Below are positions 48,627-54,443 of a DNA stretch of 64,000 nt, piece after piece; within the stretch, counting starts at the first letter, position 1; every line of letters starts with the position of its first letter. The stretch comes from Polyangia bacterium. Its GTDB lineage: Bacteria > Myxococcota_A > Polyangia > Polyangiales > Sandaracinaceae. Location: NCBI GenBank assembly GCA_030426845.1, contig JAUHXR010000008.1:1-64000 (forward strand), read 5' to 3'. A program made the translations under genes and the position numbers. The notes below the pieces were generated by a model, which was not told the DNA's origin, did not search any database, and saw nothing but the letters and a program-made list of their open reading frames with translations.

Positions 48627-50300
48627 ATGGATGGGATGGCCGCATACCGAGCGTCGAGCGCCGGAGATTTTCGCCCCCTCTTCGCGCTCATGCGGGGCCT
48701 GGAGGACGCCGGGGACGAGGCGAGCCCCTGGCGCACGGTGCTCCGTACACGCGCAAGCCTCGTCGACCCGAGCGAGGCGCCGATCGGGTCGGACCCGCGG
48801 AGCTGGCGGGCCCTCGCGGGGACGCCGAGGCTTCACGGCCTGGCCCGCACCGACCTCGTCGTGCGCTCGGTCTTCCGGCTCGACCGAGCGTCGCTGGCCG
48901 AGGCCGCGCGGCCGGACGGAGCGGCCGATCCGCTCGACGCGCTGCACGCGCGCGCGTGGCTGCGGGCGTTCGACGGAGACCACACGCAGGCGATCGGCGA
49001 CGCCCGCGCCATCGCGGAGCGCGCGAGCGCGGTCCGGCGCGCGGACCTGCGCGTCTACGCGTCAGCCCTGGCCGCGCTGGCCTCGCTCGGCGCGGGGGCG
49101 CGCGAGGAGGCGACCGAGTCCGCGCGGCGCGCGGTGCGGATGGCCCGCGCCGAGGGGATCCTGTTCTGCGAGTATCTCTCCGGCCTGGTGCTCGCGCGGG
49201 CGCGGCGCCTCTGTGGCCTGCCGCATCTGTCAGCCCGCATCCTCGCCGCGCTCGGGCGGGTCGTCCCCGCCCCGATCCGCGCGTGGATCGACTGGGAGCT
49301 CTCGCTGCACGACCCCAGCGCCGACGACCCCAGCGCCGACGACCCCAGCGCCGACGACCCCAGCGCCGACGACCCCAGCGCCGACGACCCCAGCGCCGAC
49401 GACCCCAGCGCCAGCGGCCCTGGCGCGGCGTCGGTCGGACCGTCGAGGATCAGCGCCCGCCCGATGATCGAGGCGGCCGCGCGCGGCGACCTCGGCGCCC
49501 TCGAGCGGGCCGCCGAGGAGGCGCTCTCGCCCGTCCGAGACCTCGACTTCCTCGCGCGGGAGCACGCGATCGTGCGCGCCGCGATCGACGCCCGTGAGCC
49601 GACCTCGGGGGACGCCACCACCGACCTCTGGCTGGCGGGCGAGACGAGCGACACCCCGCCTGGCCTGTCGGGGCTCTGCTGCCCCGAGATCGGCGACGAC
49701 GGGAGCGAGATCGCGGGCGCCTTCGTGATCGTCGGCCCGGGGCGAACCCCGCGGCGGGTGCTTCGCGCGGGGCTCGGAGCGTTCGAGGGGTCGGCCACCG
49801 CGCCGGTCGAGCGCGCCCAGCTCCGGACCTTGACCGCGATCGCGATCCTCGCCTACGCGGGGCCGGCGGGCCTGCGCGACGAGGAGCTCTTCGAGCGGGT
49901 CTACGGGTTCGCGCTCGGCGGCGCGCGGCACGCGGGGACGCTGCGGCAGCTCGTGCATCGCATGCGGGATCGGCTGGGCGACGACGCCACGGTCGAGCGC
50001 CGTGACGGCGGCTACGTGCTCATCCCCCACCGCGCCTTCGCCGTGCCGGACCCTCGCTGCTCGCCCGCCCTCGACGAGCTGATCCTCCAGTTCCTCGGGC
50101 GCCGCGGCGGCCACGCGACGACCCACGACGTGGCCGACGCGCTCGGCGTCGCGCTCCGCACGGTGCAGGTGACGATGAAGCAGCTCGTCGAGGACGGCGC
50201 GTGCCTCGCCATCCGGCAGGGGCGCTCGTTCGACTACGCGCTCGAGGACACGACCTTTCACCAGCCGACCCTCACGCGGCTCTCGCCGGTGGTCGCGTGA
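48627..50300 (+). CDS. Polyangia-type regulator: TPR-like N-terminus, DPSAD repeats, C-terminal winged-helix-like domain
   Basis: A 557-residue cytosolic protein not assigned to a named family. The N-terminal part is Ala/Arg-rich and helical, like TPR repeats (HARAWLRAFDGDHTQAIGDARAIAERA, ASALAALASLGAGAREEATESARRAVRMARAEG). Residues 229-263 are seven copies of Asp-Pro-Ser-Ala-Asp. The C-terminal about 160 residues contain two winged-helix-like units (EELFERVYGFALGGARHAGTLRQLVHRMRDRLG and TTHDVADALGVALRTVQVTMKQLVEDG), suggesting DNA binding. Start uncertain (ATG 48627 or 48636). First gene of a coupled four-gene unit. Confidence 0.75.
   Translation: MDGMAAYRASSAGDFRPLFALMRGLEDAGDEASPWRTVLRTRASLVDPSEAPIGSDPRSWRALAGTPRLHGLARTDLVVRSVFRLDRASLAEAARPDGAADPLDALHARAWLRAFDGDHTQAIGDARAIAERASAVRRADLRVYASALAALASLGAGAREEATESARRAVRMARAEGILFCEYLSGLVLARARRLCGLPHLSARILAALGRVVPAPIRAWIDWELSLHDPSADDPSADDPSADDPSADDPSADDPSADDPSASGPGAASVGPSRISARPMIEAAARGDLGALERAAEEALSPVRDLDFLAREHAIVRAAIDAREPTSGDATTDLWLAGETSDTPPGLSGLCCPEIGDDGSEIAGAFVIVGPGRTPRRVLRAGLGAFEGSATAPVERAQLRTLTAIAILAYAGPAGLRDEELFERVYGFALGGARHAGTLRQLVHRMRDRLGDDATVERRDGGYVLIPHRAFAVPDPRCSPALDELILQFLGRRGGHATTHDVADALGVALRTVQVTMKQLVEDGACLAIRQGRSFDYALEDTTFHQPTLTRLSPVVA
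49311..49415 (+). repeat. Seven in-frame 15-bp repeats encoding DPSAD
   Basis: GACCCCAGCGCCGAC is repeated seven times with almost no change, the last copy ending CCAGC. It encodes a flexible acidic linker inside the regulator gene. The identical DNA (not just peptide) copies point to recent slippage expansion. Confidence 0.95.
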
Positions 50301-51031
50301 TCCGCGCGCTCGGGCTGCTCTTTGCGCTCGCGCTGAGCGCCTCCCCCGCGCAGGCGCAGGACGACTCCGCGCGCGGCCTCTTCGAGCAGGCGATGGAGGC
50401 GAGGCGACAGGACGAGCTCCAGCTCGCGGAGGAGCTGCTCACCCGCTCGCTCGAGCTCGATCCGCGCTCGGCGACGATGTTCAACCTCGCCGAGGTGCGG
50501 GGCCGGCTCGGCAAGCACTGCAGCGCGGTGCAGCTCTGCCGCGCGCTCCGCGAGGGGCGCTACGGTGAGCTCGCGCCCGAGCAGCTCGCGGAGGTGGCGA
50601 GCCGGGAGCGCCAGTCGCTCGCGCAGACCGCGACGGTCTCGGTTCGCGTCGAGGGCGCTCGCGCGGCGCGCCTGCGCGTCGACGCCAACGCGCCCCGGTC
50701 GGTCGGCGGGGGCGACGCGCAGACGATGTGCCTCGACGCGGGCGATCACGTGCTCGTCGCGAGCGCCGCGGGCCGCATGACGGTCGAGCGCGCGCTCACC
50801 GTCGAGGGGGGGACGACGCCCGAGGTCGCGCTCACCCTGCTCCCGCTCGCCGAGGGCGGCTCGGTGGTGGAGGAGCCAGCGTTCTGGCTCGCGCTCGGCG
50901 CGGTGCTCCTCGCGGGCGTCGGCATCACGCTCGGCGTGGTCTTCGGGACCGAAGAGGATCGGGTCGTCGATCCGGTGTTCGGCAACAAGGCGACGCTCAC
51001 CCAGTGGCTCGGGCTCGGAGCGCGGTGGTGA
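50297..51031 (+). CDS. Exported TPR and PEGA-like membrane protein
   Basis: A 244-residue protein. A signal peptide ends ALSASPAQAQ. Residues about 25-75 are TPR-like (ARGLFEQAMEARRQDELQLAEELLTRSLELDPRSATMFNLAEV). Residues about 115-180 resemble a PEGA domain (ATVSVRVEGARAARLRVDA, GDHVLVASAAGRMTVERALT). A membrane span follows (FWLALGAVLLAGVGITLGVVFG). The short C-terminus faces the cytoplasm. Its GTG overlaps the regulator stop and its stop overlaps the beta-helix gene start, so it belongs to a coupled unit. It may link the surface lipoprotein to the kinase. Confidence 0.8.
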   Translation: MIRALGLLFALALSASPAQAQDDSARGLFEQAMEARRQDELQLAEELLTRSLELDPRSATMFNLAEVRGRLGKHCSAVQLCRALREGRYGELAPEQLAEVASRERQSLAQTATVSVRVEGARAARLRVDANAPRSVGGGDAQTMCLDAGDHVLVASAAGRMTVERALTVEGGTTPEVALTLLPLAEGGSVVEEPAFWLALGAVLLAGVGITLGVVFGTEEDRVVDPVFGNKATLTQWLGLGARW

Positions 51032-53001: not shown

Positions 53002-54443
53002 CGGACGGCGCCCCGGTGAACGCCACGCGGCGCTACCAGCCGCTCTTCGAGATCGCGCGCGGCGGCATCGGCTCGGTGCACCTGGCGGTGAAGCGCGAGG
53101 GCGAGTTCGAGCGCCTCTACGCGATGAAGACGCTCCATCCGCACTACGTGACCGAGGAGAGCATCCGCTCGATGTTCCTCGCCGAGGCCAAGATCGCGGG
53201 CCTCATCCGGCACCCGAACGTGGTCGCGGTCTCGGACGTGGGCGAGACGCGCGATGGCCCGTTCCTCGTGATGGACTACGTCGAGGGCGTGTCGCTCGGC
53301 GAGCTGATGCGCGCGCCCGAGCTCGGACACCTCTCGGTCGCGCTCTCGGCGAAGATCGCTTCCGACGTCGCGCGTGGCCTGCACGCCGCGCACGAGCTCG
53401 AGGGCCACGACGGCTCGCGTCTCCGCGTCGTGCACCGCGACGTGTCCCCTCAGAACATCCTGCTCGGCTTCGACGGCGTGGTCCGCGTGACCGACTTCGG
53501 GATCGCCAAGGCGCTCGGCCAGCAGGACCAGACCGCGACCGGCATCCTCAAGGGCAAGCTCGGCTACATGGCGCCCGAGCAGCTGCGGTTCCAGCGCCCG
53601 GACCACCGGACCGATCTCTACGCGCTCGGCGTCGTCCTCTTCGAGATGCTGAGCGGCCGCCGCCTCTACTCCGGCGGGATGGAGTCCGACGTCCCCCAGC
53701 GGATCCTCTTCGGCCCGGTCCCCGACATCGAGGACTTCCGTCGAGACGTCCCTCCCGCGCTCCAGGAGCTCCTCATGCAGCTCCTCGCGAAGCTCCCCGA
53801 CCACCGCCCCGACGACGCGCTCGAGGTCGCCGATCGCCTTCAGCTCGTCGCCGAGGAGGGAAGCGATCTCGTCGCCGCGCTCCAGGCGTGCCTCGAGACC
53901 CACTTCGGCGAGCGCCGCCGCGAGGTCCGGGCCCGCGTCGCGCGAGCGCTGCGCGACGGGATCCCCGACCCGACCTACGACGCCACCGCGGAGCCCGACC
54001 CGGGCGCGTCGCGCTCCCCGGTCGCCCCGGCGTCGATCGCAGCGCCGGCCGGGCCACCCCGCGGCCGCTCCCGCTGGTCGGTCGTCGCGATCGTCGCGAG
54101 CGCGATCGCCGCGACGGCGGTCGCCGTCGCGGTCCTCCGCACCCCGCCCGACGACGCCCCCGACGCGCCGCCCCCGACATCCGCGACTCCCGCGTCGGTC
54201 GACCTCGCGCCGACCGAGGTCCCCGTCGAGACCCAGGTCGACGTCGCGCCGGCCGACGACGCAGCAGACGAACCGCCGCCCCTCCAAGCGGCCCCCGCCG
54301 AGCCGGAGGACGAGGAGGCCGCCGAGCCCGAGCCCGCGCGTCCTGCGCGCGGTCGCTCCCGACGACGCCGACCGCCGAGCGCGCGGCCGACGCGCCCGGC
54401 CGGCGACGGCGAGCGCCCTGAAGGCTGGTGGGGCTGGAACTGA
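52998..54443 (+). CDS. Membrane-bound Ser/Thr protein kinase
   Basis: A 481-residue kinase. The catalytic domain (about 15-280) has [48 protein letters not shown] and YMAPEQLRFQRPDHRTD. Then come a juxtamembrane linker, one membrane span (about 345-365, SVVAIVASAIAATAVAVAVL) and an extracytoplasmic Pro/Ala/Glu-rich tail ending in Arg-rich and WWGWN. Its GTG overlaps the beta-helix gene stop. As the last gene of the coupled unit it may be the signal-transmitting component reading the lipoprotein and TPR protein outside. Confidence 0.9.
   Translation: MTDGAPVNATRRYQPLFEIARGGIGSVHLAVKREGEFERLYAMKTLHPHYVTEESIRSMFLAEAKIAGLIRHPNVVAVSDVGETRDGPFLVMDYVEGVSLGELMRAPELGHLSVALSAKIASDVARGLHAAHELEGHDGSRLRVVHRDVSPQNILLGFDGVVRVTDFGIAKALGQQDQTATGILKGKLGYMAPEQLRFQRPDHRTDLYALGVVLFEMLSGRRLYSGGMESDVPQRILFGPVPDIEDFRRDVPPALQELLMQLLAKLPDHRPDDALEVADRLQLVAEEGSDLVAALQACLETHFGERRREVRARVARALRDGIPDPTYDATAEPDPGASRSPVAPASIAAPAGPPRGRSRWSVVAIVASAIAATAVAVAVLRTPPDDAPDAPPPTSATPASVDLAPTEVPVETQVDVAPADDAADEPPPLQAAPAEPEDEEAAEPEPARPARGRSRRRRPPSARPTRPAGDGERPEGWWGWN

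Follow-up and report, generated by a model that had tools for sequence, protein, structure and literature searches.

The locus and its four genes

The window analysed here, a 64,000-nucleotide stretch of contig JAUHXR010000008.1 from a Polyangia bacterium of the family Sandaracinaceae, carries at positions 48627-54443 a cassette of four co-directional plus-strand genes whose protein families, as described below, recur together in many genomes. These are, in order, REG (48627-50300, 557 residues), a predicted cytosolic regulator; a TPR/PEGA protein (50297-51031, 244 residues); LIPO (51028-53001, 657 residues), a lipoprotein; and KIN (52998-54443, 481 residues), a Ser/Thr kinase. Gene calls rest on translation and on our own script trained on codon usage, which reproduces the genes of the window; at this locus it returns the same four genes, and the opposite strand offers nothing better. 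The three 4-base GTGA overlaps that join the genes were likewise confirmed, but the “strict co-translation” read into them by the initial annotation goes too far, since 12 of the 42 same-strand junctions in the window share a -4 overlap. Such overlaps also occur at 21 of 109 junctions in other loci of the same genome, and three consecutive ones were seen at this locus only, among the loci read.

REG has no transmembrane (TM) helix. An AlphaFold2 model built on an alignment of 33 relatives (pLDDT 90, pTM 0.90) arranges it as an alpha-solenoid (residues 1-340), an OmpR-like winged helix (about 365-475), a second winged helix (482-539) and a C-terminal tail. Only the second winged helix is recognised by Pfam with any strength, as TrmB/HTH_24/MarR-like; the match is weak in the window copy (HTH_24, E 0.005), and helix-turn-helix (HTH) domains of these types are found in 22-24 of the 33 relatives. 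The OmpR likeness of the first winged helix is suggested by the model together with a sub-threshold Trans_reg_C match. Foldseek returned no match to REG at E <= 0.001; among bacterial folds the solenoid came closest to the TPR proteins Rap and NprR (4gyo, 8rsv, 5dbk; all E >0.01).

No other stretch of REG is as well conserved as the tail (50238-50270, residues 538-548), whose consensus is [VL]EDTTFxEPT: its mean top-residue frequency is 0.81, as against 0.36 for the solenoid and 0.49-0.55 for the winged helices. A solenoid block at residues 160-212 is conserved as well. The columns of T542, T543 and T548 hold T or S in at least 92% of 51 REG sequences, and three of the six Ser/Thr columns conserved family-wide lie inside the tail. 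When GTDB contigs were scanned with the tail pattern, 31 of the 32 matches proved to be REG relatives. By its looks the tail is a candidate target of the kinase, with these three threonines as putative phospho-acceptors. A perfect 15-nt tandem repeat within the gene (49309-49412, 6.9 copies, coding for DDPSA) is incidental, since it falls in a disordered linker (pLDDT <50) as an insertion without counterpart in the relatives of the family alignment.

Signal peptides and topology of the partner proteins were read by eye and from hydropathy. The TPR/PEGA protein has a signal peptide, TPR, a PEGA-like sandwich, a single TM helix near its C-terminus (residues 198-216) and a short tail with DPVFG. 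The TPR match is weak in the window copy; among 20 relatives, Pfam finds TPR in 15 and PEGA in 10. The tail commonly reads DP-x-[FYW]-G preceded by basic residues, which suggests a cytoplasmic location for it.

LIPO carries a lipobox with Cys20 and a beta-sandwich N-domain (residues 26-152) with a Cys-rich end. Across the family this N-terminal part, of about 150-190 residues, is constant: lipobox, high-confidence beta-sandwich and Cys-rich end. It matches no Pfam family, and Foldseek gave no match to LIPO at E <= 0.001, only weak transthyretin/Ig-like fold matches. The C-terminal part, by contrast with this constant anchor, is swapped between copies: some end in an RCC1 propeller, the commonest end (by Pfam in L079, L072, L087, L059 and L073, with L085, L125 and L130 similar to them), others in a beta-helix, and still others show no match. 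For the window LIPO a beta-helix is probable, with stacked strands modelled at moderate confidence at about residues 390-515, weak matches to Beta_helix (E 0.028, 14.5 bits against a cut-off of 25.9) and choice_anch_Q (E 0.006), and a sister copy (L052, which L068 and L069 resemble) that scores above the Beta_helix cut-off (E 7e-27). The initial annotation had suggested that the beta-helix lipoprotein could sense polysaccharide; as just one of several swappable ends, and not the commonest, the beta-helix does not sustain that suggestion.

KIN consists of a kinase domain (residues 18-271; Pkinase E 2e-37, 129.5 bits, cut-off 31.7), a TM helix (362-380) and a basic, presumably periplasmic tail ending in GWWGWN. 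The Hanks-type catalytic K, HRD, DFG and APE motifs are all present and are conserved in the family alignment. Domain scans gave only Pkinase/PK_Tyr_Ser-Thr-type matches and no TPR match, and the tail looks unstructured. A reading of KIN as a PASTA kinase (PknB/Stk1) was rejected: there is no PASTA match, and NF033483 scores 226 against a cut-off of 450.

Recurrence of the cassette

Of the 379 genomes sampled from the phylum for a profile search, 17 contain REG, all of the same order or class; relatives are present in the same family and order, and the window's own genome holds nine or ten further substantial copies. Genes were called by script at 51 fetched REG loci, a few of them cut by contig ends, and 44 loci were left after near-duplicate removal. 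Within 6 kb of REG at these non-redundant loci, a kinase was found at 43, a TPR/PEGA gene at 25, LIPO at 20 and all three at 17, the full set being spread over several families of the class. With kinase density taken from a Pfam census of the window's own genome (151 kinases in 9.4 Mb), the chance of a kinase within 6 kb of a random locus is about 0.195, so that 43/44 corresponds to a P of about 1e-29. The assembly of that genome comprises 538 contigs, the window being contig 434. The profiles had been built partly from the tested loci, hence ten further loci from another collection were checked. These come partly from genomes already sampled, the loci themselves being new with the exception of L168, an apparent orthologue of L081. 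REG is present in eight of them; a kinase adjoins it in seven, and the eighth ends at a contig edge.

The copies of the cassette represent one multi-copy system, of which the window set is a single member. That the four proteins belong together, as first proposed, is thus borne out by families recurring around REG in many genomes, including loci outside profile building, and by the co-variation of the REG tree with those of the kinase and the TPR/PEGA protein. Conservation of gene order is another matter. The order REG-TPR-LIPO-KIN was not seen in other loci: a divergently transcribed kinase is the commonest upstream neighbour of REG (22/51 loci), usually followed by the TPR/PEGA gene and often joined to it by a -4 overlap, so that REG usually stands divergent from a kinase-TPR pair. 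The initial annotation had staked its idea on gene order, and taken literally the idea fails there; whether the same set of genes recurs is the more apt criterion.

Co-diversification was assessed by a mirror-tree comparison of patristic distances, with REG set against the nearest kinase of the subfamily, using same-genome paralogue pairs and shuffling within genomes only. The distances correlate for REG and KIN (r 0.56, 61 pairs, p 0.0075) and for REG and the TPR/PEGA protein (r 0.55, 28 pairs, p 0.008). With pairs and shuffling both confined to single genomes, species history cannot explain these correlations, and the cassettes appear to have duplicated and diverged as units.

LIPO and the TPR/PEGA protein form a tight pair of their own. 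In two near-complete genomes (G001 and G006) no more than 3 kb separates them at 15/23 and 14/22 places, where 0.5 is expected, mostly without REG; the putative receptor-scaffold pair is therefore broader than the REG cassette. Combinations of LIPO, TPR/PEGA and kinase genes without REG were also noted on contigs 171, 198, 296 and 468 of G000 (L130-L132, L134) and at L136 in G001, where a DUF1592-type gene directly follows LIPO. Such REG-less modules may use other outputs.

The input side varies in other ways. Five loci at least, L057, L058 (7192-7578), L066, L118 and L121, encode a conserved 128-residue protein (MPTWAEVQEYARSKYKLA...) near REG. In all but L121 it is an immediate neighbour of REG, downstream or upstream at a distance of a few hundred bases at most; no member of the LIPO or TPR/PEGA families was found close by in any of the five, which points to REG-KIN as the core to which differing inputs are attached. 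This sub-family may represent a version of the system whose input is cytosolic. The kinases of these loci have a distinct C-terminal extension of their own (WRVKGAA...). A compact arrangement was observed in L127 (G053), L161 and L162, with LIPO divergent from REG and a second kinase closely after REG; in L127 and L162 one REG is flanked by two kinases.

The neighbouring DUF1592/DUF1552 pair

Upstream of REG, across a divergent spacer that is presumed from the gene calls to be a promoter region (48527-48626), lies a minus-strand gene for a PSCyt3/PSD protein (DUF1588/1592/1595/1585/1587; 46892-48526), followed on the same strand by its partner, a HXXSHH (DUF1552) gene (45504-46850). The Pfam assignments are firm: DUF1552 scores 232.9 bits (E 8.8e-69, cut-off 30), and PSCyt3, PSD2, PSD3, PSD4 and PSD5 are all above cut-off. 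As recurrent neighbours, the genes of this kind are the presumed output of the cassette.

The link between cassette and pair that the initial annotation suspected is upheld at the level of gene linkage. DUF1552 genes lie within 6 kb of REG at 10 of the 44 loci, with about 1.4 expected (P about 1e-6) from 96 matches in four genomes of about 40 Mb in all, or roughly 3% of random loci with one that close. The linkage rests on pooled loci; in G001 and G006 alone it concerns 1/4 and 1/3 REG and is not significant. Counting either type, a DUF1592- or DUF1552-type gene stands at 13/44 REG loci and at three of the further loci (L145, L161, L162). In L049 and L085 the DUF1592-type gene is paired instead with a weak DUF1501 match. 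Among the compact loci, a convergent DUF1552-DUF1592 pair was seen immediately next in L162 and a few genes later in L127; the DUF pair of L161 is located past LIPO.

The window pair is of the same kind as the PSCyt3/DUF1592 pairs of Planctomycetes and Verrucomicrobia. Excerpts of a survey of those groups report that PSCyt3 genes regularly adjoin a family of unknown genes, that carbohydrate metabolism is suspected and that the function of PSCyt/HXXSHH-type pairs is unknown; unlike the window pair, those described in these excerpts come with no mention of linkage to a kinase-regulator cassette (PMC5615132). The cassette described here would be the first regulatory handle on DUF1592/DUF1552 (PSCyt/HXXSHH) pairs known to us.

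A proposed surface-to-DNA relay and its alternatives

The observed gene content, recurrence, linkage statistics, co-diversification, domain architecture and tail conservation lead us to favour, as the probable though far from certain explanation, that the four genes make up a single copy of a modular, multi-copy surface-to-DNA relay in which LIPO senses, the TPR/PEGA protein relays and the kinase phosphorylates REG. Topology, direction of signalling, phosphorylation, DNA targets and ligand, and with them every biochemical step, are what we infer from these observations. The C-terminal sensor of LIPO, here beta-helix-like, would detect a surface or periplasmic ligand and act on the TPR/PEGA protein, the bulk of which would be periplasmic, with a single crossing of the inner membrane. 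This protein would relay to the periplasmic tail of the single-pass kinase and so activate it, whereupon the cytosolic kinase domain would phosphorylate Thr residues in the [VL]EDTTFxEPT tail of REG. Phosphorylated REG would then bind differently at divergent promoters, both those of the cassette to which it belongs and, for roughly one copy in four, those of an adjacent DUF1592/DUF1552-type pair. The kinase-REG step is proposed because of the near-obligate linkage, the co-diversification and a conserved Thr-Thr tail like the ETTS motif phosphorylated by PknG; the receptor step, because of the LIPO-TPR pairing and the design of constant anchor and exchangeable end. More tentatively, and with distinctly less confidence, the cassettes may form a new class of transmembrane signalling, in which interchangeable surface receptors plug into a core of kinase and regulator, REG occurs about ten times per genome with separate targets for every copy, and DUF1592/DUF1552 secreted proteins are a recurrent output.

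Several observations weigh against the relay. Over half of the REG loci are without a recognisable LIPO or TPR/PEGA gene of these families, or both, and given these gaps the sensor side of the cassette is not obligatory. The REG-LIPO correlation is not significant (r 0.23, 17 same-genome pairs, p 0.08), and the many LIPO-TPR pairs lacking REG may have other outputs. The conserved tail adjoins the wing and might have a structural role, in dimerisation or in touching DNA for instance, instead of being a phosphosite. A repeat search of the 48527-48626 spacer gave no significant operator repeat. Finally, the enrichment of an aromatic W-motif in the tails of REG-linked kinases (22/41 versus 3/29 others, P 3e-4) speaks for the relay, but was obtained with a regular expression written after inspection of the tails.

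An alternative is that only REG and the kinase form a working pair, the kinase itself sensing and REG switching on envelope proteins, with LIPO and the TPR/PEGA protein as kinase substrates or envelope effectors. The near-invariant REG-KIN core, the frequent absence of LIPO and the TPR/PEGA protein, the loci with the 128-residue protein in place of the other partners and the highly variable end of LIPO all agree with such an arrangement, which we nonetheless consider rather unlikely: LIPO and the TPR/PEGA protein are tightly paired with each other, the latter co-varies with REG, and a constant anchor with exchangeable propeller or helix ends fits a receptor. It is also conceivable, if improbable, that REG is no target of the kinase at all but a one-component regulator whose solenoid senses a small molecule or peptide, as in Rap and NprR, and whose part in the kinase module is limited to transcriptional control. 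The weak fold matches of the solenoid point in that direction, and the divergent REG-KIN layout is what plain transcriptional control would produce; yet the Thr-rich tail rather than the solenoid pocket is most conserved (the block at residues 160-212 notwithstanding), and co-diversification of REG with KIN fits protein contact better. That the genes are merely chance neighbours might be entertained in a genome of over 150 kinases where 4-base overlaps are common, but the probability is negligible: the counts (43/44 loci) refute it, and the further loci confirm this.

Relation to known systems

By analogy, the proposed relay works most like two described systems, GlnH-GlnX-PknG-GarA/OdhI of Actinobacteria and AfsK-AfsR of Streptomyces. 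It is a member of neither, since REG lacks both the SARP domain order and FHA, and KIN lacks TPR and PASTA. In the actinobacterial system a sensor lipoprotein, a transmembrane protein and a Ser/Thr kinase are also encoded together, with a TPR scaffold, and GarA/OdhI has in its flexible tail a Thr-Thr motif, ETTS, whose counterpart in REG is EDTTF (PMC8546545, PMC5448819). The motif is phosphorylated by PknG (VETTSVF; PMC8546545, PMC5448819) within the GarA/OdhI peptide SDEVTVETTSVFRADFL (PMC8546545); the resemblance of the REG tail to it offers a lead but does not amount to a test. The differences are considerable. PknG is soluble and carries the TPR itself, whereas KIN is a TM kinase with no TPR match; GarA/OdhI, an FHA protein, has enzymes rather than DNA as its binding partners, whereas REG has no FHA match; and GlnH is a putative glutamine-binding lipoprotein in a system that, unlike the cassette, is not multi-copy with exchangeable sensors.

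AfsK, a Ser/Thr kinase, phosphorylates AfsR, a large regulator with a winged-helix-type domain and TPR-type repeats, and raises its affinity for DNA (PMC10972967). REG likewise combines winged helices with repeats and has a linked kinase, at 43/44 loci. In AfsR and other SARPs, however, the DNA-binding domain comes first, followed by BTAD, NB-ARC and TPR, whereas in REG the solenoid precedes two winged helices and a distinctive C-tail, with no NB-ARC; Pfam and NCBIfam searches gave no SARP/BTAD match. That account of AfsK-AfsR includes no lipoprotein or PEGA partner, unlike the cassette (PMC10972967). The TPR solenoid of Rap, joined to an HTH in NprR, is a further likeness to REG, but the fold matches are weak (E >0.01) and the domain order is different. 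Additionally, we know of no linked kinase for Rap/NprR-type regulators.

The cassette is apparently undescribed: no description was found in a literature search that covered DUF1552 with DUF1592, PEGA with TPR and kinase in Myxococc, and Sandaracinus, most subscription journals lying outside its scope. To our knowledge, neither signal nor target is known for most eukaryote-like kinases of myxobacteria. For one kinase subfamily, a single locus of the cassette supplies named candidates for sensor, scaffold, substrate and phosphosite, in bacteria that, according to an excerpt of one report, have the largest known sets of such kinases (PMC2887360). With its exchangeable sensor ends, the cassette would illustrate, in bacteria, how receptors can diversify while the kinase chassis stays fixed.

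Other features of the window

In the REG/DUF1592 spacer, a direct repeat (GTCGWTCCTTGCMWGCC, copies 62 bp apart, 14/17 matches) was considered and is not claimed, since random stretches of the window often match as well: it was equalled or beaten in 67/200 stretches of 221 bp and in 22/300 of 130 bp. On the minus strand at 35461-37922, a separate pair of genes with a -4 overlap encodes a Ser/Thr kinase and then a protein combining FHA with a sigma-54 activator, a second kinase-to-transcription link inside the window. Also on the minus strand, the gene at 30761-31735 encodes an NYN-domain protein with a weak OST-HTH/LOTUS match; its antisense frame reads as repeated DDFASD-like units, which suggests a short in-frame repeat expansion comparable with the DDPSA repeat of REG.

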